Source of the DNA: Filosporella fistucella
Lineage: Eukaryota; Ascomycota; Leotiomycetes; Helotiales
Direction of reading: 5' to 3'
NCBI GenBank assembly: GCA_030077755.1
Contig: JAQJZZ010000013.1
Coordinates: 1,364,001-1,428,000, forward strand
DNA length: 64,000 nt
Under the pieces are notes generated by a model. The model did no database searches and had not been told where the DNA came from. It was given only the letters and a program-made list of their open reading frames with translations. Positions 3,779 through 62,102 of the stretch are shown here, piece after piece. The position numbers and the translations under genes are program-made. The stretch's first letter is position 1, and each line of letters starts with the position of its first letter.

Positions 3779-3784
3779 AAAAAA
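3779..3784 (-). terminator. Pol III terminator of the tRNA-Tyr gene
   Basis: A run of six T on the minus strand begins 18 nt after the tRNA discriminator base, a standard RNA polymerase III stop. Confidence 0.75.
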
Positions 3785-3837
3785 TATGAAGGTGAAAGTT
3801 ATCTCTCAGGCGCGAGTCGAACGCGCGACATTCCGGT

Positions 3838-3847
3838 AGACTGAATA
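3838..3847 (-). other. Canonical anticodon-loop tRNA intron
   Basis: TATTCAGTCT lies between base 37 (A, 3848) and base 38 (A, 3837), the position cut by tRNA splicing endonuclease. Ten bases is short but plausible. Confidence 0.8.
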
Positions 3848-3860
3848 TTACAGCCGGACG

Positions 3861-3910
3861 CTGGTGATGTTAGTGATATGTTGTTAAGTTGAAGAAGCGC
3901 AGAAACTTAC
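3861..3910 (-). other. GT-AG intron inside the tRNA-Tyr D arm
   Basis: On the minus strand this 50-nt block starts GTAAGT, contains CACTAAC with the branch A about a dozen bases before the end, and ends ACCAG. These are the consensus donor, branch and acceptor of the protein-gene introns in this window, and the length is in their range. Exact removal rejoins TATGG to CGTCC and rebuilds the D stem. It is not at the position cut by tRNA splicing endonuclease. Spliceosomal removal from a Pol III transcript is inference. Confidence 0.8.
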
Positions 3911-3936
3911 CCATAAACCAACTAGACGACCGAGAG

Positions 3937-4837
3937 TTTGTTTTTGTTGTGATTGGCCAATCTTATTTCATACTATAAACATTATTGACAAAGTGGAAGC
4001 GGGCAGGGCTGGTAGGCAACGAGGGGCGGCTTGGAGTTATAGGCAGTCAGGCCTGGAAGTTTGGAGAGGATGAGCTGAAGTTTTCCAAGTAGTAAGTCTT
4101 GTAGGTAGTGTAATTATTAGAGCCCTATCGTTTTATCCTAGCAAAGCTAAGCACAGAGTCAAGCCTACTAGAAATCCTTAGAGACATCCCGACTCCTTAA
4201 CATTTGGGACCTCATTTGTTGTTTAATGCTCTGCCTGCTGGGGCAACATATCGGGACGCTGGCCACTCACTCTAGATCCATGCCGAGCATGGGATTTGTG
4301 TAGTCAATTGAGAAGAGCTCTAAATAACTTGAATTTTGAGAAACAGATATCAAGAATTACATTATACGATATGCATCTATTGCCCTTTCGTCAACCTAAG
4401 ACTCAGGAGACACATTTCCCTTCAGGGTCTCGAGGTTCATCACATGACGTTATGCCCGCCTTTTCAGATTGCTCTCTGCTCTCTTTCTCTCTAATGCATA
4501 GATCTAAATACCCAATACTGCTGATATTATAGGCTTTCAGCACTGCATAGTCCAGCATTGTCTTACGATCTAAAATGTGCTTGGCTCAAAATCACGTTAC
4601 CTACCAACCTCCTCATTGTCGCTTCCTCTCTCTTTCAGTGTGACTACAGCGCAATGTCAATGCAGGTACATGTCATTCACTGTCCAAATGCACATATTAG
4701 CCTCTAAGCTTGCTCCGGTAATGACTCCGTTGCAATTGCGCTTGCCTGAATCAGAAATTCTATAGCAAATTTTCATATTATTGACCCCTCTTCATCTCTA
4801 TCCTCTCGCCCTAGAATTACATACAACCACACTCAAG
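3937..4837. other. Intergenic region, no gene seen
   Basis: Spacer between the tRNA and the 2EXR gene. The frame of that gene can be extended upstream only to a TTG at 4781, so the ATG at 4838 is taken as its start. No other structure recognised. Confidence 0.5.
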
Positions 4838-5677
4838 ATGTTTATCCTCTTCTCCAATCTCCCAGTAGAGCTCAGAAACCATATCTGGGCTCTAGCAGCC
4901 AACAACGAACCCCGCATCATAGACGTCTGGAATAAATTCGATGGTCGTCTTGCTCACGACTGCACTTTCTACATCTCACACTACCACATCATGCATGCTG
5001 CTATCGCACCGCCCTCTCTGCTAGCTGTCTCCAGGGAATCCAGGAGCATAGCGCTAGAGCACTATGTCCTTGAATACAGGACCGCGATGCGGATAGATGA
5101 ATTCGTCGAAGTCATACAAGCAAAGGTCTACATCAATTACGCCACTGATACGCTCGTGCCAAGAGGGTTCTGGAACATGGTTTCTTTTGAGGATTTTGTG
5201 GGACGCTGTTATGGACGCTTACACACCTTGGCTATTGATATTAATCAGAGATTCTGGCATGACAATTTGAAGGATTATGTTGTGGCTGGTAAATGGATTC
5301 TGGATGGTGTGAAAGAGGTGTTTCTCTATGATACGAGAGGCGGGGAGAGGTGGAAGGGAAGCGAGAATTTGCACAGGTATACCGAGGTTGAGAGGCCGGA
5401 AAGGATGGATTTGAGTTTCAAGGAGGTGGGTGGGGGCAGCGAGGCTTTGAAAGAGGTGAGGGAGATGATTTTGAGGACGTTGGATATTGCTGAGGGAAAA
5501 TTTGCAATGGAAGTTGAAGAGGGAATCGGGAAGAAAAAGATGAGGCTCAAGTGGTATGACAATGTCAAAAAGACCAGGCAGGGAAAATATGTCAGGCCTG
5601 AGGTGAAGATTATGGAGTTGGTTACAAGTATTCCGGAAGGGACTGTTATGATGCCGCCACGGCATTGGGACGACTGA
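4838..5677 (+). CDS. 2EXR-domain protein
   Basis: Single-exon gene of 279 residues. It opens with MFILFSNLPVELRNHIWALA, the F-x-x-LP-x-E-L-R-x-x-IW motif that defines the fungal 2EXR family, and continues with PPSLLAVSRESRSIALEHY, the second conserved block (residues about 60-80). The family is abundant in ascomycetes and has no assigned biochemical role; the N-terminal motif resembles F-box-like interaction modules. The C-terminal third is charged and Glu-rich. The start is the first ATG in the frame, context CAAGATG. Neighbours give no functional hint. Confidence 0.85.
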   Translation: MFILFSNLPVELRNHIWALAANNEPRIIDVWNKFDGRLAHDCTFYISHYHIMHAAIAPPSLLAVSRESRSIALEHYVLEYRTAMRIDEFVEVIQAKVYINYATDTLVPRGFWNMVSFEDFVGRCYGRLHTLAIDINQRFWHDNLKDYVVAGKWILDGVKEVFLYDTRGGERWKGSENLHRYTEVERPERMDLSFKEVGGGSEALKEVREMILRTLDIAEGKFAMEVEEGIGKKKMRLKWYDNVKKTRQGKYVRPEVKIMELVTSIPEGTVMMPPRHWDD

Positions 5678-14883: not shown

Positions 14884-17383
14884 ATGGAAACAATCACAAT
14901 ACCCTCTCCTACTGCATTCCTCTCCTCTCCCGTCTTGAAGCCTGCTCCAGAACCACCTCCACCACCAAAGCGCAAACCACCTCCTGCAACAAAATCTGCC
15001 GCTTCCGCAAAGAAGACAGGAGGGATTGTAAAACCCAAACAATCCAAGAGTCGCAACGGTATGGGCTTCACCCATTTTCCTCTCTTATCTGAGGGAAGAT
15101 AAGGCTAACCAAAAAGGTTGTATAACATGTAAAGCAAAACGTTTAAAATGCGACGAAACACACCCGAGTTGTCAGCAGTGTCACAAAAGGAGTGTACCAT
15201 GTGGTGGATACAAAAAGGATTTCAAATGGAGGCCGTTTGAAGAAACAACTTTTGTCAATAAAGCTGCTCCACCAAAGCTAAAACGAAGTAGGTCCTTCGA
15301 GCAGAAATAGGACACAACTGATACTCGCAGATTCAATATCACTAAAACCGCCAGATCTTCCGGCCGCAAGTCCAAGCGATGGCTCTTCAGAGTCAACACC
15401 CGGGGCGGAGGAAGTGAGGGAGGATACAAATATGGAATCGTTCTTCCACGCTCCAGCTCCGACACCACCACCATCCTTCACCCCCCCCAATTTCGATATG
15501 AACTTTGGTCCCTTCGATATGAGTAACTCACCATACATGCGAGAACTACCTAGGCCGAGATTCGAAGCGGATCATGTCACAAGGAGTTTAAGTAGTCTGT
15601 TCGAGGAATCAAATCCGCTACCTCCAAGACCAAGCTTTTCTGGACAATCTCCAAGGTTGATAGATCTACTCTTGCCGGGTTCCGAATTGAATGCTAGACC
15701 TGGAACGGTCACTATCCCTCCAATTGGAATGCCTTTACCTGCGCTGGAAATGCCAATGGAACAATATGTGCCCACAGTGGAGATGCAGGAGACTAGTTTG
15801 GAGGATGATGTGGAGGAGATTATTAGGGAGCCACAGATGTCGGACACAGACATGTGGATGTCTATGCGGAGTCCTCATGCCTCGAGATCGCCCACTGCGA
15901 CACCGTCAACACAAAGAGGGGACCCATTCAGTAACAAATTTTACCGGCAGCCGGAAGTTCAAGCTGGGAGTAAGGAGATGTTGATGTTGAGGTTCGACAA
16001 GCAGACTTGTGGAATATTGTCTGTGAAGGATGGCCCTACAGAAAATCCATGGAGGACTTTAATCTGGCCGCTGGCAAGAAATTCGTCGCCTTTGTACCAT
16101 GCGATTGCTTCCATGACAGCATTTCACACATCTAGGGAGAAGCCCAGCCTGCGGGTCGATGGGATGGAACATATGAGAATGAGTATCCGTAAACTAGCTA
16201 CCGACATCCCGAAGATGCGAACAGATACAGCACTCGCAACAACATTGGTACTAGCATTCTCTGAAAGCTGGGATCAACATATCTCTACCGGGATTGAACA
16301 TCTACGAGGAGCCAGGATACTCGTCAACCAGGCTTTAGCATCACATAGGAAACGTAATCTAATGGGAGATGATTTAGCGAGACTAAGGTTCCTATGCAAT
16401 ACATGGGTTTATATGGATGTCATCGCAAGACTGACTTCAGTTGACGACGACGATGCAAGTGATTTCGAAAATGTTCTCGCGCCGCTCAATTCGATTGCCA
16501 ACTTCAACGAGATTGATCCTCTTATGGGATGCGCTAGTAGCTTGTTTCCTCTCATCGGACGAGTTGCAAATCTTTGCAGGAAGGTTAGAAAGGTCGAATC
16601 GAATTCAATTGCTATCATCAGCCAGGCCATCGAATTGAAAGAACTTATTGTGCAATGGTCACCACCGCCTCTGCAATCTATTGACCGGCCGGAAGACCCT
16701 ACTTCGGAAATTACTCACGCCCTTCAAACAGCAGAAGCATATCGCTATGCCACTCTACTCTATCTTCACCAAGCTGTTCCTGAAATTCCATCATGGACGT
16801 CCGCTCAATTGGCAAAGAAGGTCCTGGTCTACCTCGCAACGGTCCCTCTTTCTTCCCGTCTCGTCATCGTTCAGATATATCCCCTTCTCGCCGCTGGCTG
16901 TGAAGCCTACGAAACAGAGGACCGTAAATGGGTTGAAGAAAGATGGGAGAGTATGAGGAACAGAATGTGGATAGGGAATATCGATCGATGCGAGGAGGTT
17001 ATGCATGAAGTTTGGTCTCGACGCGATAGTGTAGAAGCTGCTCGGAATGCCAAAGAAAAATGCAAGCAGAGACCATCAATGACACATTCGGAGAGCTCGA
17101 AGCGGAAATTCGAAGAAGAAATGGCGATGGATGATATGTTTTCTTTCTCAGAAATGTTGAATGGACCGAAAAGACAGCGGAGTAGTTTCTCGGGTTCTTA
17201 CAGTCCTGTTCAAGGGGAGAGAAAGAGAGTGCATGAGCCGGTGGAAGAGGAAATGGATAAAGAGTTGACGGTTAGAGGGAGACTACATTGGGTTGGCGTG
17301 ATGCAAGATTGGGAGTGGGAAAGTAAGTCAATCTCAATTCTATAAAACGAAACGTGCTAACGCCTTCAGTCCTCCTGGGGTAA
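14884..17383 (+). CDS. Zn2Cys6 transcription activator with fungal_trans_2-like region
   Basis: Fungal-specific nuclear DNA-binding regulator, 783 residues. Exons 14884-15058, 15117-15287, 15331-17322 and 17370-17383; all introns are GT-AG and in phase (branches CTAAC in the first and third; the second is only 43 nt). Residues 60-87 form a perfect Zn cluster: C-x2-C-x6-C-x6-C-x2-C-x6-C, starting GCITCKAKRLKCDETHPSC. Upstream is a Pro/Lys-rich stretch (EPPPPPKRKPPP) that may act as nuclear signal. The large third exon has the helical repeats typical of the fungal transcription factor domain found in UGA3/ARGR2-like proteins. The last exon encodes only the terminal ILLG after WEWE, an ending common in this family. 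A TTG-extended frame lies upstream but no ATG in frame. Target genes unknown. Confidence 0.93.
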
Positions 17384-27871: not shown

Positions 27872-30067
27872 TTACACAAGTGCAGTGACCTTGACTAATG
27901 GCAGCTCGCCCTTCAGCCCAGCCTGCCCATCCAGCACTTTCATGACAGAAGCCGGTTTGACTATGGGCGTGCTGTCTATGCCTGTAGCAGCCTTCAACGA
28001 GCAAGTCTGCAGCGAAACAGGATCTAGATTTTCCACCAGCGTTTTGTCTGCATCCCAGTCGCTGTTCTCAACGTCGTCATCGTATCCGAGCAGTGTTGTG
28101 CATTCTACGCCAACAAATGTAGTTTCGTCGTCGCTTTCTTTGGTTTTGGGTTCTGCCTGTGGTTCCATGGTCTTGCTCTGGTATTGCGATATTGTCAGAT
28201 CAGAGACGAGCTGGAGGAGTGTAGGATCCAAGGGCGGTGATGGAGGTAGTGATACCTCCTCTGGTCGCAACTCCTCTCCAATTGGAGACGGACTCCGTCG
28301 TATATATTCAGGTAATGGCTCTGTCTGTGCTGCGTCCTTCGATGCCAATGAGTCAGTCTGTAGCCGTGCTCCAAATAGCCAGCTTGCTTGTGTAGATCGC
28401 TCGGCCCCTGTAAGACCAGCCTCTACTAGCGGATGGAACCTGAAATTGAACTCTGATGACGGTAATCGGAATGCTTCAGATACCATTTCTCCTTGTGGTG
28501 CAGGCTCGGGTTGCAGGCTTGCCTGTGACCACCAGTCTAGCCCGAAAGATGGCTTATTCCTAGGCACTGACTCATCCGTGACCGACGATTGATCTGTGAA
28601 AGTAAATTCTGCCTTTAGCAATGATTCAGCTGTGATTTTTGACGCACATTTGACCTCGTTCGTCTCAGAAAGTGATGTTCCCAGTAGTAGGTCCTTTTTA
28701 GGAACCGCACTCCTAAGAGACAACTCCTCTGGGCGACTTGCTAGTGGCTCAAGTCTAAGAACAGACATTTGTTCTGCCAAGGTAGTCTCAATGACCTCTT
28801 TTGCCCTGAAATTGGATTTCGGAAGATTGAGTCTATCGTTGATGACGATGGTCTCTAATCCCCTAGCCAGGTCTGCATACTGAGCTACTGAAGCTTCATA
28901 TCGATCTAACAATTTCCTCGCAGTGATAGTCTCCCCCTTGCCAGTCATGTCTTGCACAGCGTCCATCCACTCACTTCTGAGTTTGCCAGTAGAATCGTAC
29001 GGCCTCGCTCTTTTCATAAATTCGGCCCATTCACCAACGACTTTCTCGGCACTCTCTTGGCCGATCTCGAACCACTCCTCATGGCTCTTCCGACAATGCG
29101 CAGCCTTGCAGATGCCTTCACGGCGCCATTCCATGACGAGCTCGTGGTGCACCAGCGTCTCGGCCCGGTGAGCGTTGGGAATGTTGTGCACACTGAATAG
29201 TAGATTCGGCGTATAACCGCACTCAGACCACTCGTCTAGACGGGTTTGAACGGTACGTGAGGTCCAGCCAATCTTGACATGGCCTGGAGAAGAGCTTCGG
29301 CTGAAAACGTACAGTGCTCCTTCTCTGAAGTCATATTCCTTCTCGACCAGGTAATTTAAGAGTTTGGAGGCCACCGAATTCTCGTAAAGGTGTGGTTCAT
29401 TGACATGCGGAACGAATTCGGGCAATGGTCCTTCGCGGCGGCGTGATATGGTTCTCGTCATAGCTAGATTTGTCAAATCATTGCCGTTGCGTGGTCGCAG
29501 GTTGTAACGCTGTTCAGTGAGCGGTTCATGTGTAGGCCGAATAATTGATTGTGCTGCGACAGTTTCGGACAGAGTTGAGCCATCTGCGGAAAGCCTTTCT
29601 CTATCGGACAATGGAGTGGAGGTGCTACAAGATTGCACGTCAAGTTGGTTGACAACGCTAGCTGTTGAAACAACAAGTGTACTTGCATGATCCGTGGCGA
29701 AACTGATCTCCTCAACAGTGGCCAGGAGAAGAGACGCTGCACCCTCTCGTTCTAGGATTTCCTTCTGCCATCGCTCAGCCAAAGGTTCCAAGTGGCCTAT
29801 ATATTGTATGCGATCTCGATGTTGAGCCCGGCCTGATCTGCAACAGTTACACAAGATATAGTCTTTTAAGAGATCAAGGCTAACAATGCCTGATGAGGCA
29901 TCGATGATTTGTTCGTATAGTTCGATTGCGCGCTCATTGTCTGATGTTCGACAGTCCCAGGAGCACCTGTTTTGGGTTGTCTTGGCTAGAAATATGCACT
30001 GTCTTTGGTTTGAAGGATTGAGATCGTAGAACGATATATAGTATGGTACACCAGGTTCGACAGCCAT
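27872..30067 (-). CDS. T5orf172 (GIY-YIG-like) domain protein
   Basis: Intronless gene of 731 residues. Around residues 250-365 lies a T5orf172 domain, the GIY-YIG-related fold of bacteriophage T5 orf172 and fission yeast Mug113: ALYVFSRSSSPGHVKIGWT, then TRLDEW and HRAETLVHHEL supply the expected Tyr, Lys-Ile-Gly, Arg and Glu positions. The N-terminus has a second conserved module (RQCIFLAKTTQNRCSWDC) typical of the fungal versions. The C-terminal half is acidic and Ser-rich with no domain. GIY-YIG relatives cut DNA, so a nuclease role is possible but untested for this branch. The ATG is the first codon of the frame. It lies between a HET remnant and Dicer-like 2. Confidence 0.88.
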   Translation of the reverse strand: MAVEPGVPYYISFYDLNPSNQRQCIFLAKTTQNRCSWDCRTSDNERAIELYEQIIDASSGIVSLDLLKDYILCNCCRSGRAQHRDRIQYIGHLEPLAERWQKEILEREGAASLLLATVEEISFATDHASTLVVSTASVVNQLDVQSCSTSTPLSDRERLSADGSTLSETVAAQSIIRPTHEPLTEQRYNLRPRNGNDLTNLAMTRTISRRREGPLPEFVPHVNEPHLYENSVASKLLNYLVEKEYDFREGALYVFSRSSSPGHVKIGWTSRTVQTRLDEWSECGYTPNLLFSVHNIPNAHRAETLVHHELVMEWRREGICKAAHCRKSHEEWFEIGQESAEKVVGEWAEFMKRARPYDSTGKLRSEWMDAVQDMTGKGETITARKLLDRYEASVAQYADLARGLETIVINDRLNLPKSNFRAKEVIETTLAEQMSVLRLEPLASRPEELSLRSAVPKKDLLLGTSLSETNEVKCASKITAESLLKAEFTFTDQSSVTDESVPRNKPSFGLDWWSQASLQPEPAPQGEMVSEAFRLPSSEFNFRFHPLVEAGLTGAERSTQASWLFGARLQTDSLASKDAAQTEPLPEYIRRSPSPIGEELRPEEVSLPPSPPLDPTLLQLVSDLTISQYQSKTMEPQAEPKTKESDDETTFVGVECTTLLGYDDDVENSDWDADKTLVENLDPVSLQTCSLKAATGIDSTPIVKPASVMKVLDGQAGLKGELPLVKVTALV

Positions 30068-31037
30068 ATCTAATGATGCGGAGTATGAATATTTGAGATT
30101 GATTCGGCCAGTCTACTCTGTCTACAATGAAAAGTAAGGCCTTCGTGGTGGTCATGCCCTGTTCGCATCAGGAGCACAGGATCATTTATCAAGTCCTGCA
30201 ATCCAACAAGACATTGCTCATCCACGCAACACCATGGGGCTGTGAATACACATGTGCGTCGTGGTGTGGCAGCTCCGTATTCAAGGATGAGGCAGCTTCG
30301 TCCTATAGCCAGGCACCATTAGCGCCGAGGCGTTCTCTCTTCTGGCGCATGCTTCTCAATCCGGTTCGGTGGAAAGCTTCCCTCGAGCTGATTCATTCCG
30401 TACTGTACAGTACAGTATAGAGCACAATATGGAAGGCTGAGATAAGATCAGGCAATCACACTGTCCGAGGCTACCGAATCGAGCTAGTACCGCTTAGCTG
30501 CACTTCAGACGAGAAAGGGCCGGTCCGCGTTGCTTTGCATATTTTAATCTCGGCTCAAAGTTTAGCCGTATATATATATCCAGATGTCTACACTTTATTC
30601 TACATACGACCACAGACTGAGGAGAGTTGGGCTATGTACATAGCCTTCGGAATAACTGCATCACAATGCCAAGTCACGTCTCAGAAATTCGAAATTCGGT
30701 CCAGTTCGACATCCGTTCAACTTGACTAGTCACCAGCCTCTTGAATCTGAGTGTCTAGACCTAAGATCTTGAATTATTTACACAGCAACCCCCAAGCCAT
30801 GCGCTAGTATATCTTTAGGTTATAATATTCAAGTAGAAGAGGAGTTGAATGGGTTTGGTAAAATTGAATTTTGTAAAAGAATCTCCTACCTACTTATGAG
30901 TAACCTCTCAGAACCGGAGGAAATATTATGAGCCGAGGATTATCTGTATAAGGACCAGTTAATTGACAGACTTTGAAGTCTGCACAAGAATCTATCTTGG
31001 TTTCCATTGGCTTAATGCGTTCTGGCTGCTATTTGCG
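30068..31037. other. Intergenic region with repeat copy B
   Basis: Promoter side of the T5orf172 gene and 3' side of DCL2. A short TACTGTACAGTACAGTA palindrome-like run lies near 30402-30418. Confidence 0.5.
30602..30785 (+). repeat. 5S-rRNA-derived repeat, copy B
   Basis: Head ACATACGACCACAGACTGAG is the best preserved 5S-like start after copy F. Tail CCTAAGATCTTGAATTATTT resembles the tails of copies A and E. Confidence 0.7.
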
Positions 31038-34000
31038 TCATAACCCCGGAGATCGTAACCTTTCATTCATACGTCTTAGCTCAGCCATCGCCCCTTTAGC
31101 AGCTCTTGTCTTTGCTTCATCATTGTTTTTCCCATTATCACCTTCATATATCAGATCCCCCCGCACAAACACTTTGCACCTTCTCCCACTCTTTCCGTCT
31201 TTCAGTTCAGACGCATGTAGTTCGTACACTACCTTTGCTCCGCCAGCCAGAATGCCTAGTTCCTCCCTAGGGTGCAGAAGATTGATTCTTTCCTTGATAA
31301 TTCTGCGGAGATACTTGATGATCCCCATTTGGTCCAAGATTTTTCTGCACGCCTCCATAGACCCCGAGTCAATCCAAACCGCTCCTATAAGACTCTCTAC
31401 TATGTCTGAGTAGAACTTGTTCGCCTGAATGCTTGCCAGTAGTGTCCAAGGGTATTCGCTCCCCGATTCAATTGCCGAGAGAATATCATGGCGTAGTGCT
31501 GTATGCCGCTGGACTATCTCTTGTTGTTCTATGCCGACATCAAGCATTCCGTGTCTCATAAACCGCCACAGCGGCATTTGAAATTCAGAATATATCACTT
31601 CCATGACACCAGTCAGGTGATTTTCCTTCGAACATGTTTCTTTTTGAGTAATACTCCACTCAAGAGCGATGAAAGCAAGGAAATCGTGATTGACTAAGGC
31701 TGTCTTGCAAAGATGCATGAAGGAAAGCGGAAGGATATCCTCAAACCTTGATATTTCGGTGACTATCAAGGCCTCCAGAATGCTGTCGCCAAGGAACTCC
31801 AACCGCTCGTAGCTCGCAGTTCCGGTATTGATAGATCTGTGCGACATGGCTTGGATGATCAGTGACTTCTTCACGAAATAATGACCGGCCAAGCTCTCCA
31901 ATTGACATAAGTCTTCCGGTATTGGAACATCCACGGGTGCAACGTCAAATAAATGCGATCTTCCAACTTCAATGCTTGGCATGTCAATTTCTGGCAAGAA
32001 AATTCGAGCAATCGACAGTGATGTTTGGAAATCTCCCATCTTCCATCCGGCGCCAATGAGGGATTCCACAACATCAGCAATCGACTTGCTCGAGATCTGC
32101 CTAGTCCCATTCTCTTCAATTTTCAGTAGTTCTTCAACATAGAAAGGACGCCATCTCTTTCCGGTAAAGACATCCGTAAAGATAAACTTGTCTAAACCAC
32201 GATCGATAGCAGCTTTGCATAACCGAGAGTTCGACACAATTGCGGCTCTCTTGGCGGATAAGTAGCCTTCCGGCCAGTGATTATCTTTTGAATCGAGTTA
32301 GCTCTCGTTGATACTCGGATTTACCGGAGTTTCCGTGAACAGATTATAGTGAGCAGGATGGGAGCGGCAACTCACACTTGGAAGCTAGGAAGATGGAAAC
32401 AATCATTTTAAGAATAGAATCTCCCAGGAACTCAAGCTTTTGATAGTTGTCTTTTCCCTGGGCACCAGAAGTGCTGATTGCTTTTTGAACTATTGCTAAG
32501 TCGGAGATGTCGACATCGGCAAGCAGGGACGAGCAAAGCTCTTTGACGATAAGTTCGTTTTCTATTTTGTGTAAGAGGGATGGAATGATTGAGGAAAATT
32601 GAGAGAAAGCAGTTGGTATAGCATCCCTCTTGAGTCTAGATTGCGGCAAGACACTGAAGTATTCTTTGCCGACTGTTTCATGCCCTTTGGCGACTGGGTG
32701 CAGAAAATCTGAGCGGCCGGACCACCTCTTTACTGCCACAAAGGACTGATTCGGAGAGAATGACTCGTAATCTTTATCGGGGTGTTGTATCGATTGAATA
32801 GAGGGCTTTGATGATAGAAATTTGTGGAATAGATACGGGTGGCCGCAATTTTGAGAATCCCTTAGTAGGCCCATCGATTCATCGAGAACGTCGTCGTCAG
32901 CCAGTGAAATGCACCCAAGCTGTCGTTGGCTGATTTTGGCATTCAATCCCTCGAAGACGACCACATGTCGCTTTTCTTCAACTTTCCAGCGGTGTCCAGA
33001 TGCAAGTGAGAGTAAAGTTGCAGTATGTTCCAACTGCTGGTTGCAATACTCCACATTCCTTGGTGGTCCGCTCTCAAGCTTCCACTGACTAGAAGCATCC
33101 CAAAATATCAGAATCGGTTCAAGATCTGGGAGATCAATGGGTATTGATATTTCGATCTCGCATTTTATGAGGCCATGCTGATCTTTCAAGGCGAAAACAC
33201 GTCGTTGCAGCTTCTCTCTATTCTCCCAAGCATGAGCAATTGATGTCCAAGGGTTGAAGAGTCCATCGATTTCAACCATAGAGTCTCCTTTTTCAATGCC
33301 GCTTGACGGTTCTATAAAATTGAGTGGCAGTAGATGGTCATTGACAAGTCCTGCATGATATAGAGCAGTGTATGCTTCGAATGCCGCATCTTTCATCGCA
33401 TTTTTTTCGGAGCGCCAAAGCATTTTACTGACGAAAATTTGCAGTTTCGGATCAAGGGTGGCTGGTAAAATAACTTTTGCTCTGAATAGTGCTCGGTTGT
33501 AGTTCTGATTCTCGCCTTCGTTTCCGTCCATGATGATGTAAACTGGCCGCATGTCCACAGGAGCTTGGGTGGAAAGTCGAGAACAGAAGCATTGCAGGTG
33601 ACCTTTTGCGTTGTCCAAATCAAGCCGGGCACCGGTACTTGGTACTCTGAAGTAACGGCTTCTGCACAAGTCCCCTTCACAATTCTCAGAATCTACAAGT
33701 TCCTGCACTTCCCTTTGTTCATCTTCGTACTTTTTCTTCATCTCCAATTCTAGATCCTCCCATTGTCTAGTATGATCTGGTGATGAACTTCCCAGCAACA
33801 GTGCCCATCTTGATCCAGGCAATCGCGCCCTCCCTCTACGCTGGATATAAGACTTGAGACTCGAGGGTTCATCAAAGCAGATTACCAGATGACATCGCGG
33901 GACGTCGATTCCCTCTTCAAGTACGCTTGTAGCGATGAGAATATTGATATCGCCGGACCGGAACCTGCTAAGAGCGTCCTTGTGTGTGACTATTTCAAAA

Positions 34001-35635
34001 AGCTCCCGCTTTCCAGAACCTTGCTGAGAAGCTCCGACCACGGTGTCAAAGCGAAGTCGCTTGCTTGTTGCTGGGTGTATCGAGAGGAGCTGCTGGAGAA
34101 GGGACGCAGTTGTTCGTTGTTTGACAAAGATGATGCCAGTAGTCATTTGGTCATAAGACTGAAGAAATTCGATGAGAGCGCGGACTTTGTCAGAGATTGA
34201 GGCTTGGGACAGCATAGTCAGGTTATCTGGGGATATATCCACCCTGCGCAAAGTGCTGACGAGATGTCGATTTTTAGCATCCTTCCATGTGGTAGTCGTG
34301 ATATCCTTTGAGTCAGAAGATCTTATAAGAGTGGAGACAACTTGGTGGATGTAGAAGTCGGCTGCCCATTGTCCCAAGACTTGACACATCTCATTTGCAC
34401 GTCTATCTATAGTTTTCATATGTTTTTGTGTGAAAGTACTTCTGCTCATTACTGCCTTTACCATTTTGTCTCTGCTAGCCTTTGTGTTTTCAGACTTCAA
34501 GCTTATGATTTCCGGGTCTGCGTAGATATCAAGCTTCTCGTAAACCTCAAATAAGTTTTTCATGACGGACGTGCTTCCGAGGGTAGTTGAGAAGGGCTCG
34601 CTTGCTTCAAAAGGAATGCGAACTGTATCCGGTAGATTCACATGAAGCAGCAATTCCTCTTTCTGAATATGAGGACTTTTGCATACAGAATCTAGGACCG
34701 ATTCGAGGGCCTCCATTGCTTCGCTTTTGGAGCCAATTACGGGGCTTGCCGTCAGTCCAAGAATATGTGGCACATATTGCTTGGAGTGTTTCTCCGGCCA
34801 ATAGAAATCTGTCATGATCTTGCTACCAGGACTTCTCCCAGTACAATTGTGAGCTAGATCTGTCAGAACGATGTCATGGATATGCTGAAATGAAAAAGTC
34901 ACTCACCTTCATCGAAAACAATGAGAGCTAGCGAACCGATGCTAACGAATCCATGGCAAAGTGCTTCATGCAAGACGGCGAATGTTGACACAACAATACT
35001 TGTATTTGCCAGCATGGAGTCCCAGATGACTTTCTCTGTCCACCGGTCAACGTTATCAGCCGAAGTAAATGACTTGATTTGTACTGAGGATATCTGCGAA
35101 CGAAGAACATCAAATTGCTGAGAGCAAAGGGCGATAGTTGGTGCTAGAAGCCATATGAGCTGAAACTTTGTTAACCACATAGCTACATACATTGTAGTGT
35201 TGAGACGAACCTTCGGAGACGATGATATCTGGAGCTGGTGTTTAATACGCAGAACAGCGCTAGAGATGAGATTTTAGCATGCTGGAGGAGCATAAGCGTC
35301 TCTGGATGAAATTATTGAATCTTACACGTGTGTTTTGCCGCTCCCGGTATCCATCTGGCACATAAGACTGTTAGACTAATGCATTTGCACAGGTCGAGGA
35401 AGGATATAGTTACAGCGACAATAATATTCCTCTTGATGCTTTCCTCCAGCATCTCCAGCTGATACGCTCTTGAGTCAAAAGTACCATTTCCACAACCGTC
35501 AATATGTGAAATTGTATCTGTGACTGAGGAAAGAGGACTATCGTAGTCCAAGAAGTTCTTCTCCAGCATATTCTCATGCTCATGCACTTGGGAAGCTGGC
35601 ACTGGCGCTGGCAATGGTTTACTATCATTTGCCAT
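31038..35635 (-). CDS. DCL2: Dicer-like protein 2
   Basis: Ribonuclease III that cuts long double-stranded RNA into small interfering RNAs; in ascomycetes DCL2 is the main antiviral and transgene-silencing Dicer. Six exons: 35635-35414, 35354-35326, 35259-35211, 35159-34907, 34853-32376, 32284-31038; 1425 residues, all junctions in phase. Helicase motifs in order: MDTGSGKTH (Walker A, split from its neighbours by introns), FDEAHNC (made by splicing 34907 to 34853), LGLTASP, and YIQRRGRARLPGSRW. A Dicer dimerisation region follows; no PAZ is seen, as usual in fungal DCL2. RNase IIIa: KLEFLGDSILK and ADVVESLIGA; RNase IIIb: RLEFLGDSILEAL and SDIVESLIGAVW, so both catalytic acidic sets are kept. 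A degenerate dsRNA-binding region ends the protein. Apparently intact. Confidence 0.95.
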
Positions 35636-39037: not shown

Positions 39038-40799
39038 ATGTCATCAGAACAGAGTAAGCCCAACGCATTCCTTAATTATCAATTATTGCAATTAACATGT
39101 GGAGATCTAGAATATCTGCAAACCAATTCAGGCTCTCGCGCTCCTGGCATGCCGAGATCAAAATTCACCAACCGGTTCTATGAACCTATCTTGCTTCTTG
39201 CTGCACTCAATCGAGCATCACCAGACCACCAGATGCCAAAAGCTCCAAATTTATCACCAGATATAGCACAATCTCCTGAGCTTGACTTTCACTGCTTTGT
39301 TAACAAGCTTGCCCTATTGTGTGACAGTGATAAAAATGGCACAACTGTGACGGCTATTGTTGTTTTGCAATACCCAGACCGCATCCAATACCGATTCGCG
39401 TCAAACCAGCGGAAAGAGTCTGATCTGATCCATACCCAATCATTTTTGGAAAACATTCTGAAAGATTTAGGAGCGATGGATGATAGTGGTTTGGCTTTGT
39501 TGAGCTCGCATATCTTGAGTAAGGTCATATCCTTCACGCGGCCGAGGATTGGATCTTACGTCAAGTTATTAAAGGAGCAGATTCACTTTTGCATTAGTGA
39601 TTGTCAGAGAGATGACTCGCAAGAGTGTAGGTTTCACTGACAGTCATAAAATTTTCAAGAACTGAATTTCCCTCCAGCAAGATCCATTCTAACAAAACTT
39701 GAGGAGTTGAGGGAGCTGGCGAGTTTCTCCACTGACAAGGATCTGGACAACATGACGTGCAAGTATTCTGTGATCACCTCAGATGATTTTAATACTAAAC
39801 AAATTCATAGTTTCTATGAATTGCGAGAGCTTAATACATGCTATCGACATGCTACACCAGTCTGAGGTTGACAGTCTCATCCGCAATAAAACCAAGGACG
39901 GCAGAATGAATCAGTCTCTATATTGGTCGGAATTTCGCCATGCCTCAGGACGTCTGCTCTCTTACCTTCACGCGGTCAAATGCCTTATTGCGACACGTAA
40001 AAGATTGCCAGAGCTCTTCGAAGATTTTGAGGTCTGCTACATTGCTTCCTCCATCCCAGAACCGATACGGAACAGCATCAAAGATGACACCCTTTCTATG
40101 AGCGATATCATTGGTCGTATGACTTCTGACCTCACAAAACAGGATACGTATAGGGCACACGCGGAATTTCTAAAAAAATTTGACGTGGACAGCATAATAC
40201 AATACTTGGCCAAGAACAAAAACTTTCGGCCCATCGTTCATGCTGAAATTGTTGTCCTAGAATCCCTCTCAAGTTCCGGTATCACAATTCCCTCGCAGTT
40301 CTTTGGCGGTTACAAATATATCGGCTGCAGCAAACCTTCTTGCAGATTGTGTAGCTATTACTTCGCCTTCCACCCTAGTACTATTGAGTCTCGGCCAACA
40401 CACCGGAACCTCTACCACAACTGGAGAATGCCCGTTTTCAGTGCCAGTGAAGGTCCTGAACCTGGGTCAGCTAGGGAAAAACTCATGAACAAAATTTTGG
40501 AACAAGTGAGGAGAGATGCCTTTCAGACTTTGAGAGAGAAGGTTCCAGAGAGAAAAGAACATGATTCAAATACGGAGCCGACTTACCCGATCGATGGTAT
40601 TTCAACTCGAGAGCATGATATTACTCGCCATCTGACAACAAGTTTCAAATCTTTTGACATTGGGCGATTCCGAAATAGTACGTCGTATAACTTTCGTCCC
40701 ACGACTCGATCAGAACCTGTGGGGATATTCGTAGCAGATAACAGTAGCGAGAACGAGGACGAGGATGAAGATGGTGATGATGGCGGCGTGATATTGTAA
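39038..40799 (+). CDS. OTT_1508-like deaminase-fold protein
   Basis: Member of the fungal expansion of OTT_1508-like deaminases, predicted zinc-dependent nucleotide or nucleic-acid deaminases with unknown substrate. Model: 39038-39626, 39678-39762, 39830-40799, 547 residues. Intron 1 is clear (GTAGGT...CCAG, 51 nt). The second is needed to leave a frame that stops at CRYHATPV-like sequence; donor 39763 (GTATTC) or 39757 with the weak acceptor at 39829 fits the phase. The catalytic region is in the last exon: IVHAEIVVLESL gives the His-Ala-Glu signature, and YIGCSKPSCRLCSYYFAFHP supplies the two zinc cysteines. HRNLYHNWRMP follows, as usual in this family. The tail is acidic (ENEDEDEDGDDGG). 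No signal peptide. Possibly intracellular conflict or defence protein, by analogy only. Confidence 0.82.
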
Positions 40800-51593: not shown

Positions 51594-53324
51594 TCTGGAC
51601 GTTCAGTATTTGGCCCTGACAAATAAGTCACCATAAGACATAGTGTAGCTTGCTCATTAGTCCAGATCATAACACAGTCCAACAGCACGACCAATGCTTA
51701 ACTGTTGGCAGCCTCTTATTCCACTTGGTAAATCAAATTCTAGATTATTTGAACGTTTATGATGTACGTCGCTGTGATTCATGTTGCTACAAGCTCAATG
51801 CCCCTTCCAGTTTGTTCTATGTTTAAATGTTCCGGGTTTCATAACCCACCTCATCTTTTCCTCTACATTGCTTTACCTTAACTCTCGCTCTCGTTGCCCT
51901 TATCCTAGTAGGCACAATTCTCGCCACTGATTTTATAGCTCTGCTGACAGATGGCGTCGAGTCAAAGCGGAAATACTGTCAACTTCTGTAGAGCCTTTCA
52001 TCCCGAATATTGGACAGCTCTTGGCAGATAAAAGCTACTCAAAACAAATCACCATTTGTGTTTAGCGATCAATGATGTTGGAGAGGTTTCCGTATATCGA
52101 CACTGCTGCTGGCGTAGTTGGTCCAGGCACACAAAATCTTGAAATATAATAGACTATGTATCCAAACGCATTCAAGCTAGAAGGAACCCTATCATCTCAC
52201 GTTTGCCAAAACATCGCATGCTAGAGATCCTTACGCACACTGCTAAGCGGCAGCTAGGCGAGCTTATATCATGCATAGTGCCCTCAAGCTAGATCACCAG
52301 GAACCTACCAAATATGAGTTAGATATTAAGAAAGATTCAAGAATTATCAGCCCAGCTAGCCGCATGCCTTGGGACAGTGTTCAATTTATATAATTGTGAT
52401 TAAGTATAAAGCATTGCCCTCATCATCCTGATCAACTACTTCTATATCCCTGTACCGCTTTCCTTTACTTTCTCATCCCTCTGAGCTTTCTCAAATTCCA
52501 CGATCCCCTTGCCACAGGTTCCCAACATACCGACGAAATAGATATAGAGTCTCAAGCTACTATAATCAGGGCACTGCGCAGGCATGGCGATTAGATGGGC
52601 TTGCTAGAAGCCCGCACGCTTACTTGAGTGACCTGCTTCATGGCGCGAGCGAGATTAGTAAATGGTTAAAGCAAATTCCGTTTATAAATACCTCTTCCGT
52701 TTCTTTATGGTTGCCGGCAAAGTTTGAGATAGCACCGTAGCCCGGCGGTTGCGAGGATTAAAGGTAATAAAAGGTAATTTTTATCTAAAGCGGCGTATCG
52801 TCTTTAATTAAGATAAGCTATAAGAGCCGTATTTCTTATACTATGCGATTAAGATCTAAGTATATTTTAATTAATAAAACTCAAGGTTCGCTAGGTGGTA
52901 ATAATTATCTTATAAGCAATACTTAGAGAGCTTATATAATAAATGGTTAATGGTATTATTTATTGCCTTTCACTAATAGTATCTATTTATGAAATTTCAT
53001 TAAAATCTTAGACTCACTTTCGAGGAAATAAAACCTATTCGCTAATTTATATCCTGCTCCAGCGTTATAATATAGTGTGAAGGGATAGGAAGTATGCCGT
53101 TTAAGTGCATGATAAATAATACAATAACCAAAATAATAGGGGTGGTATTTAAAAGAAGAAAAAGGATTATATTATTAAGTTATGCTCGGGCTATACTATA
53201 TGTGAAGTGAGCACCGGAGCGGAAAAACTATTTACCGGTAAAACACGTGACCTAAAATCACGGGGCTTTAACCCCACCATATACGTCTTCCCTTAAGAAT
53301 AGTCGCCCCTTAATTATTCCACAC
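51594..53324. other. Transition into AT-rich DNA, no gene seen
   Basis: Composition is ordinary to about 52,700 and then becomes strongly AT-rich with frequent TA dinucleotides. No LTR boundary could be located by eye. Confidence 0.5.
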
Positions 53325-55853
53325 CTACTTCTCTATATTCCAATCCTCTATAAAGTAAAGACCCTCTTTATAGGCCTCCGTTAAAACCCCTTTATTTAAT
53401 ATATCCATATCTGGCTTAACCTCGGGCATGGGAGTTCCGGAAGCACGAGATTGCTTTAAGTGAAAATAGAACGACTTCTCCTTAAATACACGCTTCTCCT
53501 CCTTTATCATATCCCTATATAAAGCCAAAGCCACACGCGTAGCTCTTTTACGTCCTTTTATAATAAATCTGTGAGCAGCTTCCCTATCATTACCTAATAA
53601 TATGTTTCTCTCCTTTAAAATTATAGGTGAGCTCTAGCGTTTACGATATATGAGAGTATTAGACAAGGCCCCTAAACCCCCTAATTTAAAGCTTATAGGA
53701 AATCTAAAGGGTATAGCGCCATATTTATTAGCTAGCCCGGATGGCGTAGCTATTAGAGTAATCTAATCTTTATATAACTCGGATAGCATATGCCAAGTGC
53801 CTCCCTTAATCACTTCCAAGTTCTCCTTATTATCCTATATGCCTATAAACCAGGGAAGCATTATATATTACACCTTTATGGTAAGACTAGTAGTATTATG
53901 GGGTATTAATAGCAATGTGATTTGCGCGTCTCCTGATTTATAGGGTACGTTCCTCTAGCCCTCTAATCCTAAAACTTTGGCGTCTTCTTTAATAAAAAGC
54001 TGGTTAGTAATCTGATAAATAAACCTATTTATAGCCTATCCTCGAGTAATTACGCGATCCCATTATTCTCCTAGCTTATGCTATATTTTAGGCAAAAAGA
54101 ATATGCAATTCTCATCGTCCTCTTTATTTATTAATATTATTACTTAAATTATATATATGCCACGCTACTTGGCTAGCAAGTCTAATATATTAAGATTAAT
54201 ATAATAAAAATAAATACTATTTTTAGGAATATAATATTTCATATAATAGGGGTAGCTAATTAAATGCCATATAGCATTAGGCCTTAATGCCGCGTATAGC
54301 ATATAATAGGCATAATCTTGGCGCATTAATTGCTAAGCGATTAAGTAAAACATGTTTTTTAGCTAGCCTATATTCTTGCGACCATTAATTTCTTAAAAAT
54401 GCTAGCGGTATATATTAAACTCATCTAATATTTATTTCTTTAATTCCGGGTTTTAAAACCACTAATTAAAGAGCGGGGTAATAACGGATCCATTAGCCTT
54501 TTATTTAGGAAGAATTATGGACTCTTAAGCATTTAATATCTTTTCTTAATTAAAAACAAATTCGGATCCCTGCTTATTATAAAAGAACTTATAAGGGCCT
54601 AATCCATTAAAAGGTCTTGGTGGTTGACTTATAACTCGAAACCATTAATATATCGCCTTATTAGTCTTTAATTTTCCGATATCCAAGTAATAGTTAAGCA
54701 CGTATTTTAATTAATGGTCTAAAAGAGGTTAATCTAAGCGTTTGATATAGAGCCCAATTTGTCCTGCTATGAGCCGCCCATGTGGAAAGTAGACCTTTTT
54801 AAATATATATATTTTAGCTAGTAGCTTTATCCTAATCATAATCCCAAGTGCCCTCTTCTTTTTCACTATAATCTTCTAGCCCTCTATAACATCTTTTATA
54901 TAGCGGCACTAGCTGCTTATTACCTATATATCCTCATTATCTTCCCCGCTATTCGCTAGCTCTTCCTCTATATTATTTATTTCTTTTTTATCTAGCTTAT
55001 CCATGGGTCCTAGAATTATATTATATTCCTCTGCTTCTTCTCGTGGCATGCGAATTCCTTTGGATCTAAGAGCCCGACCGCTACCCTTAAGATTCATACC
55101 TAGAATCGGTAAATTTTAACCCGCCGGGCGGGGTGAAATTTCTCTGCTACCGTTATTATTATCTAGTTGCATCGGGTCTTTAGGGATAGGCTCTTCGATT
55201 ATTCCTATACTAATCTCTTTTAAAAATCCGTAAACGCTAAAAGTTATTCCTAGCTTTCGTGCTTGCCATAATAAAATTTCCTCCACCTTTTTATTTCAAA
55301 TCTTCCATGCTTTATTAAAATCACTAAACGTGAGACCCTTAACTGGCTTAGCCCATTTCTTTCCACTAGTAAGACATTAAACTATTATAATATTTATTAG
55401 TTACACTAATTGCTCTAAGCTACTAGCAAGTCGAGCTAGCTTTTTATATGTATAAAGGAAATTTAGCGAGTAATTTATTTTATTTAATTATTTTATAATA
55501 CTATTATCCTTCCACCTATTATAAATAGCCTTTTTTGCCTCATATATTCGGTCCCGTCTCTTCTTATTTTCCTTAATAATCAATAGCGCCTATGCCTATT
55601 TATTAATAAACTCATTCTCTGATATATATATCTAATAAGCTCCCCCTTCCTGCATAAATAAGAATACTTCCTTAATTATATCTAATGCCCTTTTATAATA
55701 TTATAGCATGTCTTAAAGAATGCCTGCCTTAATCTCATATCTGTCTTATTCTAGTATACCTATAAGGTAATCCTTTACCTCTTATATATTCCGAAATATT
55801 ATATTAGCAGTAAGAATAGTGCTCTTAGATCAAATGTCTAGTGCGTTCTCCAT
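53325..55853 (-). pseudogene. Dead ORF of 843 codons, unknown mobile-element protein
   Basis: The frame from ATG 55853 (MENALDI) to TAG 53325 is exactly 843 codons. Wherever I followed it, no frameshift is needed; the many stops are TAA, TAG or TGA. The N-terminal part is helical and charged (KRRDRIYEAKKAIYNRWKDN), a middle part reads LYAALRPNAIWHLISYPYYM and GDAQITLLLIP, and the last 69 codons are still open (53534-53325), ending ASGTPMPEVKPDMDILNKG and FIEDWNIEK. I do not recognise the family and see no DDE, reverse-transcriptase or recombinase signature. Preservation of the frame with only transition-type stops says it was a coding gene when RIP struck. It faces the ORF at 56483 across a 629-bp divergent spacer. 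Confidence 0.6.
55121..55135. repeat. GC palindrome 1 inside dead ORF
   Basis: CCGCCGGGCGG core extended by AAATTT-type arms (55111-55141). Confidence 0.6.
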
Positions 55854-56482
55854 AGCTATAGTATAACCCGTTTTCTCATATGGTTTAAAGGGAAAAAGAT
55901 TAAAAAGAAAAAGAAGTTTTTAAGGAAAAGAATCCTTAAATAATTGGTTTGATTCGGCCAAAGGTAAATTGCATATGGCTTATAGTTAATAAAAGCTATT
56001 AAATAAATAATTTAGTTTTTAACTAATCATTTGCCTTTGCCCCCTACCCTAAACGTCTTCTTACTTAATAAATAAATTTTCTAGCGCTAACCTCGACCTT
56101 AATAAAATAATCAAAAATAGCCCCTAAGGACTCAAAGAAGTGTGCTGCCGTTTATAGCAAGGGCAAGAAGTAAGCTAGCGCTATGCGAAGACTGCTTTAA
56201 CGGGTACTCGCTTTTTATGGCGTTTATAAAGTTTGACTTTAACTAATAATTTGCTTTTACTTGCCCTTCTTTTTAAGGTTTAGCAATTCGCCTTTATATA
56301 ATAGCAAGCCTCGTCCTTATCTTATTCCGAGTATAAATATCCTTCCCTATTCCCTTTTAACCTTTTCTTTTTAATAATTTTTTAAGTTAGCCAGGTAGGT
56401 GCCTCTTTATACCATTCCCTCCCCTATTTATAATAGTTTCCTCCCTAACTAGTCTCCTGTAATATACCTTAAGCACACTAAA

Positions 56483-57799
56483 ATGTCTTTACCCAAGCAC
56501 TAAAATAATTCGTTTACTCCCGAGCACCTCGATCCTATTACCCTATCAGATATAGCTCCTTATAAGCCCGCTGCCTTTAACCCCATATATTATACCATTA
56601 CTGCCCTTATGCATAATTTAACTAATCCTGCTCTTGCCTGGCCCATAGCCGAATCCGTTAAGGCTAGCATGGCTCCTGCTCCTATTATTACCAAAGCTGC
56701 TAGTTACTAATTTACCGCCCAAAATCCCACTATTGCCACTCCTAAAAAGAAGTCTTTTAGTGGAAAAGCTCCTGCTTTTTCTCCTGGCGACCCTGCCACT
56801 TTAGCCGGTATCAAATTCACTACTACCTATATTAAAAATGCTAAACTCTTTAATCTAGACCCTGCTAATTATACTCTAGAATCTTTACGCAATGCTAAAG
56901 TCAAATACCGCCCTCTTTTTAACTACCTCTTTAGCATCTTATAATTTGCTAATACCATATCCTAAATCACATAAATAGAGGTCTGCTCATTTAAAGCCAC
57001 ATTTAAACCTTACCTCAAAATTTAACTAGCCCGTAGCCATTTCGGCTATCCACTTATTGGTCCTAATGGCGGTATTTTGACCATTCTCGGTAAGGAATAT
57101 AACGGTGGTAACTTTAACCTGCCTGAGTCTTCCTATAATAAAGCCATTATTGCCGACTACCCAAATTATTAATAATGGATTAAATATCTTCTAAATGCTG
57201 GCAACCCCATTATAATTAAGCCTTATCGCTATTACCCAGCTCCACCTCGTCCTTTTGCTACTAAAAAGGCTTCTACGTCCGCCACCTCTAATATAAAAGA
57301 CCATAGTGCCAAAGATTCTCCTATCTCTTCCGGAAAGGGTAAAGGAAAAGCTATTATAAAGTCATTTATCGCTAATTCCTCATTTGCTAAAAAGACTAGG
57401 AAGCGTAAGGCCCCTAAATCTAGCACTATAGACGATTCTAATGCTATTATAAACGCCGATCCCACTCCATTTAAGAAGCCTAAGCTTAAAATAACCTATA
57501 CCCCTATAGCTAGCTCTCCTCTTACCAGTTCTCCTCCTGCTGCTCCTATCAAATAAACTAAATCTAAGAAAACTTTGCCATCTCCATACCCTAAAACTAA
57601 GCCCGAACCAACCCTAAAGAAAGCCAGAAAACCTAAAAAGACCAAGAAATCTAAGAAACCTACTCTTATTCCATCTAAATCGTTTAAATGAATTATAACT
57701 AAGAAAAGTCTCAAAGATTATATACCCTTAGCCGCCTATAACCCAAATAATGAGGCCGGTAATAAATCTAAGGATAATAAAAAGGCTAGCGAGAATTGA
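56483..57799 (+). pseudogene. Dead ORF of 439 codons, unknown, basic C-terminus
   Basis: ATG 56483 to TGA 57799 is in frame throughout. I counted nine internal TAA and one TGA and no frameshift. Protein-like blocks include FTPEHLDPITLSDIAPYKPA, GYPLIGPNGGILTILGKEYN and WIKYLLNAGNPIIIKPYRYY, then a Pro/Lys-rich tail (KKARKPKKTKKSKKP) that could bind nucleic acid. The family is unknown. Transcribed toward the Ty3 pol and away from the 843-codon ORF; probably the partner gene of the same element. Confidence 0.6.
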
Positions 57800-58289
57800 A
57801 TATAAGTCTTTTCCTTTTAAAATAATGCGCTTTCTCGAGAGCTAAATAAAAAAAGGCGTAAATGAAATAAATACCTAGGCAGAATAAATAATAGATATAA
57901 TAAAATAGAAAAATAAAATAAAATCAAATATTAATTCTTCCCCCCCTTTAATAAATAAAACTTTTATATAAGCTATTCTTAGGCATATTACAATTCATCT
58001 TGCCGGGCAAGGTAAAATTTCCTACTATCAAATCCACTTGCTATATGTTAATAGCTATCATTTAAGATAACCCTAAAACTCTACTTAGCCGGAATCGCTA
58101 CTTAATAAGCTTCCTATCTTCTCATTTCCGCCTCCCTTCTCTCTATTCCTCTAATTAATAGATTTAGATCCCTTTATTCCTCTAGTGGAATTTTTATAAT
58201 TTCTTTATCATTTCCCCTCTCTTACTCTATTACGTTATTATCGCCATTTCCGCCGCCTACTTCTATATCATCTTTAATTATTATAGGGT
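57800..58289. other. Spacer with palindrome, no ORF
   Basis: AT-rich sequence between the two convergent dead genes, including palindrome 2 (TCTTGCCGGGCAAGG, about 57998-58012). Confidence 0.5.
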
Positions 58290-58680
58290 CCCAAATACCT
58301 TGCCTTTGCTTAAAGACTTTTATTTTATTGCTAGTATATATCCTATGCAATCTTGTCTTATCCATTTCTTTTAAAAAATAAGTTCCCTTATCGGGAATCA
58401 CTTTACTAATCCTAAATAAACCTAGCCACTTATACCTAAGCTTTAACCGCGAGGATATATCTATTTCCTATAATGTATTATATAGCAAAATAACGTCTCC
58501 CCTTTTTATTTCCCGGATTTAAATTTATTTAGATCTATTAAATCGATTCTTGCTAGTAATGCGTATTTTCTTTTATTTTGCCGCGGCTTCCTCCAAATCC
58601 TCATCCCTTAGCTAAATCTACCGGGCCCTAATCGCCAATAGCTCTATTATGCTTTAAATACTTTCCCAATCCAAAATTCT

Positions 58681-58914
58681 CTATATGGGGATCCGTATTT
58701 CTATAGGTAGCACCGCTTCTAATCTATAATTTAAATAAAAGGGCGAGAACCTAATTATTATCTTTATCATCGCTTTATTAATTAATAGCATAGCATGCAA
58801 ATTGTCTATCCACTTTCCCTTTCCTCTGTCCGTTATCCTGGCTAGAGCTTTAATAATTGGCTTATATCCTCTTTCTATTATCCCATTTATAATAGCATAA
58901 TAGGCAAAGACCAT
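58681..58914 (-). pseudogene. Integrase fragment of the Ty3 element
   Basis: Open fragment reading INGIIERGYKPIIKALARIT, DRGKGKWIDNLHAMLLIN and SPFYLNYRLEAVLPIE, the conserved end of the integrase core (P..NG..ER.H..I...L) and the following FYL.YG.EAVLP block. The zinc-binding HNETGHKGRESTY-like region is about 500 bases upstream on this strand. Confidence 0.8.
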
Positions 58915-61805: not shown

Positions 61806-62102
61806 TTACGGGTTATCCATAATAAAGAAGTTTATTATTACTTTTATGCTCCTAATCTTAATAATAACGTTTTCATAAATCCTAATAAACCTTTTCTTCT
61901 TACCGCTATAATCAATTATCCCAAATTGAGGGTTAGGTCTAATTCCTAAGCCAGTCCGCTTAGCTAGCTTGGTGTCTATAATATCCGCCTTAGCCCTATA
62001 ATCAAGTAGCGCTGGCTTTTTAATCCCTTTAATCTTTACCCGGAGCTTCGGACTAGATATAATAAAAGGTGATTTAGTTTCCTTTATCACCGCCGAATTC
62101 AC
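61806..62102 (-). pseudogene. Retropepsin fragment of the Ty3 element
   Basis: Open fragment of 98 codons: SPKLRVKIKGIKKPALLDYR, AKADIIDTKLAKRTGLGIRP. LLDYRAKADII corresponds to the retroviral-type protease site (LLDtGA.ADII); the Gly of the D-T/S-G triad is Arg here, consistent with point mutation. Confidence 0.75.

Follow-up and report, generated by a model that had tools for sequence, protein, structure and literature searches.

At least 17 nuclear tRNA genes of Filosporella fistucella, one for tRNA-Tyr among them, carry putative spliceosomal introns

Within the analysed stretch of the Filosporella fistucella genome (the window, 64,000 nucleotides), a tRNA-Tyr(GUA) gene has been identified whose D arm is divided by a 50-nt insert. 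Judged from the DNA sequence, this insert is very probably a genuine U2-type spliceosomal intron within a functional gene of the Pol III type, and the gene is one of at least 17 of this kind. The window gene is composed of the following elements:

3802..3936, minus strand: interrupted tRNA-Tyr(GUA) gene, read from 3936 to 3802
3911..3936, minus strand: 5' exon, tRNA positions 1-24 (numbered by eye); the joined junction is uninterrupted in a second tRNA-Tyr copy
3861..3910, minus strand: 50-nt spliceosomal-type intron between positions 24 and 25, GTAAGT...CACTAAC...CAG, delimited by its motifs and by an empty site
3869..3875, minus strand: CACTAAC, resembling a branch site; its presumed branch A (3870) precedes the 3' splice site by 9 nt
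3802..3860, minus strand: 3' portion of the tRNA, beginning at position 25 and ending with the discriminator base
3838..3847, minus strand: ordinary 10-nt tRNA intron after position 37, given by ARAGORN as i(41,10)
3918..3929, minus strand: A-box region, positions 8-19, uninterrupted; read from the sequence at the usual place of this box
3814..3822, minus strand: B-box core GTTCGACTC, uninterrupted
3779..3784, minus strand: T6, a candidate Pol III terminator 17 nt downstream of the gene

The original prediction had described a minus-strand tRNA-Tyr(GUA) with this insert and its three motifs at 24/25, a normal intron after base 37, and an intact B box and T6. All these elements are present in the sequence, with the normal intron (3847-3838) delimited by ARAGORN, the B-box core contiguous at 3822-3814 and T6 at 3784-3779. 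Exact removal of the insert, which had been said to restore a tRNA, yields a sequence called tRNA-Tyr(gta) by ARAGORN with exact ends. One detail, the rebuilt D stem in a canonical tRNA, is not supported by energy folding: the minimum-energy fold of the spliced tRNA-Tyr gives no cloverleaf, which is based on ARAGORN and comparison instead. In the best energy fold of the unspliced sequence the acceptor and T arm are kept. Unspliced, and with introns allowed, the gene is read by ARAGORN as tRNA-Gly(tcc), the 50 nt being misread as an ordinary intron; over the whole window, ARAGORN and Rfam at default settings detected no tRNA. The insert site is 24/25, not 37/38, where the separate intron is located, and the insert has one alternative placement, shifted by 1 nt, with an identical spliced product.

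The comparison with other tRNA-Tyr copies that had been proposed was carried out. The spliced tRNA-Tyr query found only two loci in the genome, the window locus and C13:2082267-2082399. The second copy lacks the window insert but is interrupted elsewhere. Its D arm is whole and forms the empty site of the window insert (24 nt, exact), so that the limits of this insert are independent of the motifs. In its T stem, between positions 52 and 53, it carries a different 50-nt insert (GTATGT...GCTAAC...TAG), for which the window gene is in turn the empty site. As both tRNA-Tyr genes found are interrupted, no normal tRNA would arise from either unless a GT...AG insert is removed.

The search was extended to the window's own genome (45.8 Mb, 19 contigs) and revealed at least 17 tRNA genes that are interrupted, in total at nine positions of the cloverleaf and on seven contigs (C1, C4, C7, C10, C12, C13 and C15). 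Intron sites and isotype names, assigned by eye, are as follows:

3/4: Arg-TCG (L051), the least certain of the 17
8/9: Lys-CTT a and b
13/14: Arg-ACG and Arg-CCG
19/20: initiator Met a, b and c; Val-CAC
24/25: Tyr-a (the window gene)
25/26: Ser-TGA
46/47: elongator Met a and b
52/53: Tyr-b and Gly-CCC
64/65: Asp a and b

The three-nucleotide 5' exon of L051 is deduced from its GTAAGT motif and from acceptor-stem pairing. Several of the interrupted tRNAs also possess an ordinary intron after base 37. The 17 genes stand among about 75 nuclear loci judged by eye to be clear tRNAs; this share is approximate, since the searches overlook interrupted genes and some hits are unread. The loci come from the Rfam tRNA family, B-box patterns and DNA queries, the last of which skip very common words; the list is incomplete, about 20 further B-box matches lie outside the set of loci read, and all copy counts are lower bounds. 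The Rfam family gave at least 61 hits (63 of 1940 candidates scored), 12 on the presumed mitochondrial contig C8 and 49 elsewhere. A query composed of tRNA sequences matched only seven places in the genome, the three initiator Met genes among them, and a covariance model built from 24 tRNAs of this genome and tried on 14 loci returned 16 matches, mostly partial for interrupted genes. By eye, no nuclear tRNA-Gln was recognised in the loci read, from this incomplete list; such a gene may be hidden by an intron.

Once the inserts are removed in silico, ARAGORN identifies a tRNA in 17/17 sequences, with ends at most 1 nt from those expected, and the predicted RNAs thus appear restored; the isotype called is unexpected in four (elongator Met a and b, Lys a and b). 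Unspliced, 11/17 give nothing. The unspliced elongator Met b comes out as Met(cat) with the ends as expected, and of the five other unspliced calls three have a wrong isotype while two (Asp-a and L051) have the right isotype and wrong ends.

Other tRNA-like sequences of a different construction have been observed. L042, L102 (two genes) and G000:C14:2021758-2021791 (only the T arm seen) form tRNA-like gene pairs about 240 nt apart. In the three L042/L102 genes that were read, the D arms are TAGCTTAATGGTAAAGC or similar, and a stretch of 80-90 nt lacking GT...AG limits replaces the normal anticodon loop; L129 and L130 are possibly related to these pairs.

The analysed inserts share characteristic features of U2-type introns: (i) a length of 47-55 nt, with a GT start and a YAG end in 17/17 (CAG in nine, TAG in eight); (ii) a donor that is GTAAGT in nine, GTAAGC in four and one of four other sequences in one each; (iii) a match to YTRAY 9-12 nt before the end in 17/17 (distances counted by hand for elongator Met b and Asp-b), with CTAAC, CTAAT or CTGAC branch sites in 15. 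A GT donor, a CTRAY-like branch site and a YAG acceptor are thus found throughout. The combination of GT, a branch motif 6-14 nt before the end and AG is present in 17/17 inserts, whereas 20,000 shuffles gave on average 0.0044 of 17 and at most one. The limits are fixed by an uninterrupted relative for only seven inserts (Tyr a and b, Lys a and b, Arg-ACG, Asp a and b), and those of the other ten were set by eye from tRNA structure and the GT-AG rule, which favours the chance test. Among the seven, the joined 24-nt junction is uninterrupted in a relative for five: Tyr-a and Tyr-b each in the other, Lys a and b in L063/L064, and Arg-ACG in L035. For Asp a and b, the joined query has a full-length match of 98% at C3:1944561-1944646, as judged from the alignment and not from the letters. 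Twelve inserts can slide by 1-2 bases with the same product, only one of the equivalent placements being GT-AG; the remaining five have a single possible placement.

In the protein frames of the window, four intron candidates were found; they are 46-57 nt long, and their branch motif lies 9-13 nt before the end. The scan demanded splice motifs, without homologues, and therefore only size and spacing are independent points of likeness. Among all 20 introns (17 in tRNA and three in U6 genes), the longest match is 16 nt, at the 3' end of the two Asp introns. Introners are mobile spliceosomal introns and could account for many introns in one genome, but they occur as many near-identical copies, whereas the tRNA and U6 introns, compared among themselves, share only short matches; an introner origin was rejected for want of long shared sequence.

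The remainder of the window shows several further features. A Dicer-like gene at 31041-34906 on the minus strand, with helicase C, Dicer dimerisation and RNase III matches, is present in two open pieces and has a candidate intron at 34854-34906. Pfam matches at 15282-17342, 27875-30112, 39774-40796 and 4766-5674 correspond to Fungal_trans_2, T5orf172/MUG113, an OTT_1508-like deaminase and 2EXR, respectively, genes that are ordinary in filamentous fungi. From 52001 to 64000 the GC content falls to 32-39%, and from 56 kb on the GC skew is about -0.25 to -0.32, both unlike the rest of the window.

The number of uninterrupted copies per isotype was assessed with joined-exon queries against the genome, which gave 36 matches (30 of 30 candidates scored). 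All copies found are interrupted for initiator Met (3/3), elongator Met (2/2) and Tyr (2/2), as is the single copy found for each of Ser-TGA, Gly-CCC, Val-CAC and Arg-CCG. Uninterrupted copies are present for Lys-CTT (2/4) and Arg-ACG (2/3), all of them read, and for Asp (3/5), of which L103 was read and the other two are deduced from a continuous match. An uninterrupted initiator D-arm junction with 0-1 mismatch is absent from the 45.8-Mb assembly; the search (18 nt, up to 3 mismatches) returned 22 places, three of them with 2 mismatches, one being the Arg gene L007.

Exons and introns of the interrupted paralogues differ in their conservation. The Lys paralogues are identical in the exons (85/85) and agree at 27/45 positions of the intron cores. 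The initiator Met exons agree at 71-72 of 72 positions, and in the a/c pair 72/72 exon positions stand against 30/46 in the intron cores. The Asp paralogues agree at 84/87 and 28/42, respectively, while the elongator Met genes are more diverged (92/112 including the ordinary introns, 21/42 in the intron core). The intron cores of the Lys, initiator Met and Asp paralogues match at 0.55-0.67, compared with 0.50-0.53 after shuffling. Near-identical exons together with unlike introns in most interrupted paralogues make silent copies unlikely, and the pattern, as read from the sequences, fits functioning genes whose introns are fairly old rather than dead copies with recent insertions.

Introns of the same kind have been found in the U6 gene. 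The best Rfam U6 hit (L124, G000:C7:2968184-2968282 with flanks, minus strand) contains three GT...AG inserts:

U6 intron 1: 49 nt, GTAAGT...CTACTAAC...TTTAG
U6 intron 2: 54 nt, GTATGA...AACTAAC...AAAAAAG, ending in AAG
U6 intron 3: 51 nt, GTAATT...ATACTAAT...TATAG

Each has CTAAC or CTAAT close to its end, and their removal leaves a canonical-looking U6 core from ACAGAGA through AGGATGA. With three spliceosomal-type introns in this gene, the spliceosome would be needed for its own U6. A diverged U6-like match (L125, G000:C6:601060-601162, plus strand; 44 bits, at the family cut-off) spans the model in 103 nt and is either a second U6 or a pseudogene. Not every Pol III gene is affected, since all of the at least 27 matches to 5S cover its full 120 positions within 120 nt and are thus uninterrupted (of 1964 candidates, 47 were scored; judged from the spans). 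A complete rDNA unit was not found in the assembly by a search that skips very common words; only four 18S rRNA fragments of 41-88 nt and 88-98% identity were returned, at G000:C9:2687182, C10:2809457, C16:2256510 and C18:602762. The unit is either missing or made up of words too common for the search, and the assembly may therefore lack some sequence.

The textbook route for nuclear tRNA introns is the tRNA splicing endonuclease. The ordinary introns after base 37, one of which is present in the window gene, also lie in nuclear tRNA genes; the 17 inserts differ from them in site, in signals and, presumably, in the machine that removes them. The original prediction knew of no fungal nuclear tRNA with a spliceosomal intron, and its statement holds among the matches listed from the open-access literature, in which no nuclear tRNA gene was reported to have a spliceosomal intron. 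In the portions of the sources available, no word beginning with “spliceosom” appears in PMC4090602 or in the tRNAscan-SE 2.0 paper covering 432 fungal genomes, the single one in PMC3978253 concerns protein-coding genes, the text of PMC11782384 on introns of tRNA genes has no spliceosomal ones, and one paper speaks of “non-spliceosomal splicing of tRNAs”.

The closest precedents are other non-mRNA genes. According to the portion of PMC5832005 available, U3 and U6 are the only small structured RNAs so far known to be often interrupted by introns, and the U3 introns are normal spliceosomal ones. The fungal U6 snRNA and U3 snoRNA introns resemble the tRNA inserts in being mRNA-type GT...branch...AG introns in genes for small structured non-coding RNAs; here, unlike those precedents, tRNA genes are concerned, at nine sites and in every copy found of several isotypes. 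Short spliceosomal introns are also described in the rDNA of lichen fungi, and a 57-bp one was removed after being placed in yeast rDNA (PMC8527467, in its available text). These too are ectopic introns in non-mRNA genes, but they reside in rRNA made by Pol I, unlike the tRNA genes considered here, and “tRNA” is absent from the main text of that paper. Non-canonical tRNA introns are documented, in the available text of PMC4090602 and PMC3978253, for archaea, red algae and nucleomorphs, at sites that include 3/4 (Thermoproteales) and the D and T arms. Those of archaea and Cyanidioschyzon merolae are bulge-helix-bulge (BHB) introns and those of Guillardia are inserts of 3-24 nt with a splicing route that is unknown, none being described there as spliceosomal.

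Four other explanations have been considered. Removal by the tRNA splicing endonuclease through a BHB motif has the precedent of the archaea and C. merolae just mentioned, and in a crude test four pairs are possible at two of the 17 junctions (Arg-ACG and Val-CAC). At the other 15, however, only 2-3 pairs form, two in the window gene (G-T allowed, offsets 0-3, without a random control), and the GT, branch-site and YAG signals would be left unexplained, which makes this reading highly improbable. An artefact of assembly or contamination would be betrayed by nothing seen apart from the rDNA unit that was not found, and since 17 loci on seven contigs carry coherent signals and the window also holds ordinary fungal genes, it can practically be set aside. 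The introns might also be spliceosomal and yet reside in Pol II transcripts, the tRNA genes being transcribed by Pol II or the tRNAs excised from longer, capped RNAs. Pol II transcripts are the usual substrate of spliceosomes, and in eight genes, by positions assigned by eye, the intron lies either within the A-box region (4/17: Lys a and b, Arg-ACG, Arg-CCG) or at its edge (4/17: initiator Met a, b and c, Val-CAC). Against this stand a B-box core contiguous in 17/17 genes and T-runs downstream of 13; Val-CAC and elongator Met b were read only a short way, and no T-run is present in the 50 nt past L051 or in the 34 nt past Asp-b. U6 is a Pol III transcript, and that of the same genome has introns of the same kind. 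Transcription by Pol II is therefore regarded as unlikely.

The remaining alternative, that the introns have silenced or pseudogenised some tRNA genes while intact copies do the work, was one of the two options left by the original prediction, the other being spliceosomal action on a Pol III transcript. It draws on the uninterrupted copies of Lys-CTT, Arg-ACG and Asp, on sequence possibly missing from the assembly, and on the view, in the available text of PMC4090602, that short insertions in the D or T arms of eukaryotic tRNA genes are mostly pseudogenes. It does not explain why no uninterrupted copy was found for the seven isotypes initiator Met, elongator Met, Tyr, Ser-TGA, Gly-CCC, Val-CAC and Arg-CCG, nor why the exons are intact, and in Lys, initiator Met and Asp near-identical, while the introns diverge with their splice signals preserved in all 17. 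The same near-identical exons and unlike introns speak against a recent insertion that made a silent copy. A general reading as tRNA pseudogenes was rejected on the conserved exons, the lack of an uninterrupted initiator junction and the lack of an uninterrupted Tyr copy among those found. Silent copies are thus a very unlikely explanation, and the option of a spliceosome acting on a Pol III transcript is favoured, all copies found for Tyr and for both initiator and elongator Met being interrupted.

The anatomy, the positions, the repetition over many loci, the conserved exons and the initiator junction described above are features of the DNA itself, from which we infer that the introns are removed in vivo, which polymerase is at work and in which order the steps follow. 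Most likely, the spliceosome removes the introns from Pol III pre-tRNAs. The pre-tRNA would be transcribed from the gene with its intact B box to the T-run, and the spliceosome would then take out the intron of 47-55 nt by means of the GT donor, the CTAAC-like branch site and the YAG acceptor. An ordinary intron after base 37, in the genes that have one, would be left to tRNA splicing endonuclease and ligase. Where the intron lies in the acceptor stem or at 8/9, end trimming would probably follow splicing, because trimming needs folded acceptor and T arms. The spliceosome is likely to be obligatory for all initiator Met, elongator Met and Tyr tRNAs and perhaps for the sole Ser-TGA, Gly-CCC, Val-CAC and Arg-CCG tRNAs, with U6 requiring three rounds. 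As every initiator Met, elongator Met and Tyr gene found is interrupted, cytosolic translation should need this splicing, and protein synthesis in Filosporella fistucella probably depends on the spliceosome.

Many of the interrupted tRNA genes are overlooked or misread in standard searches, and genomes with apparently missing tRNAs therefore merit a second look. The three initiator copies and the nine sites may serve as natural replicates for intron gain in genes without a reading frame. If the proposed reading is true, nuclear tRNA splicing would have a second route beside the tRNA splicing endonuclease, and the spliceosome would be able to serve short, folded Pol III transcripts routinely. 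Translation initiation in this fungus would then be directly coupled to spliceosome capacity, possibly as a means of growth or stress control.
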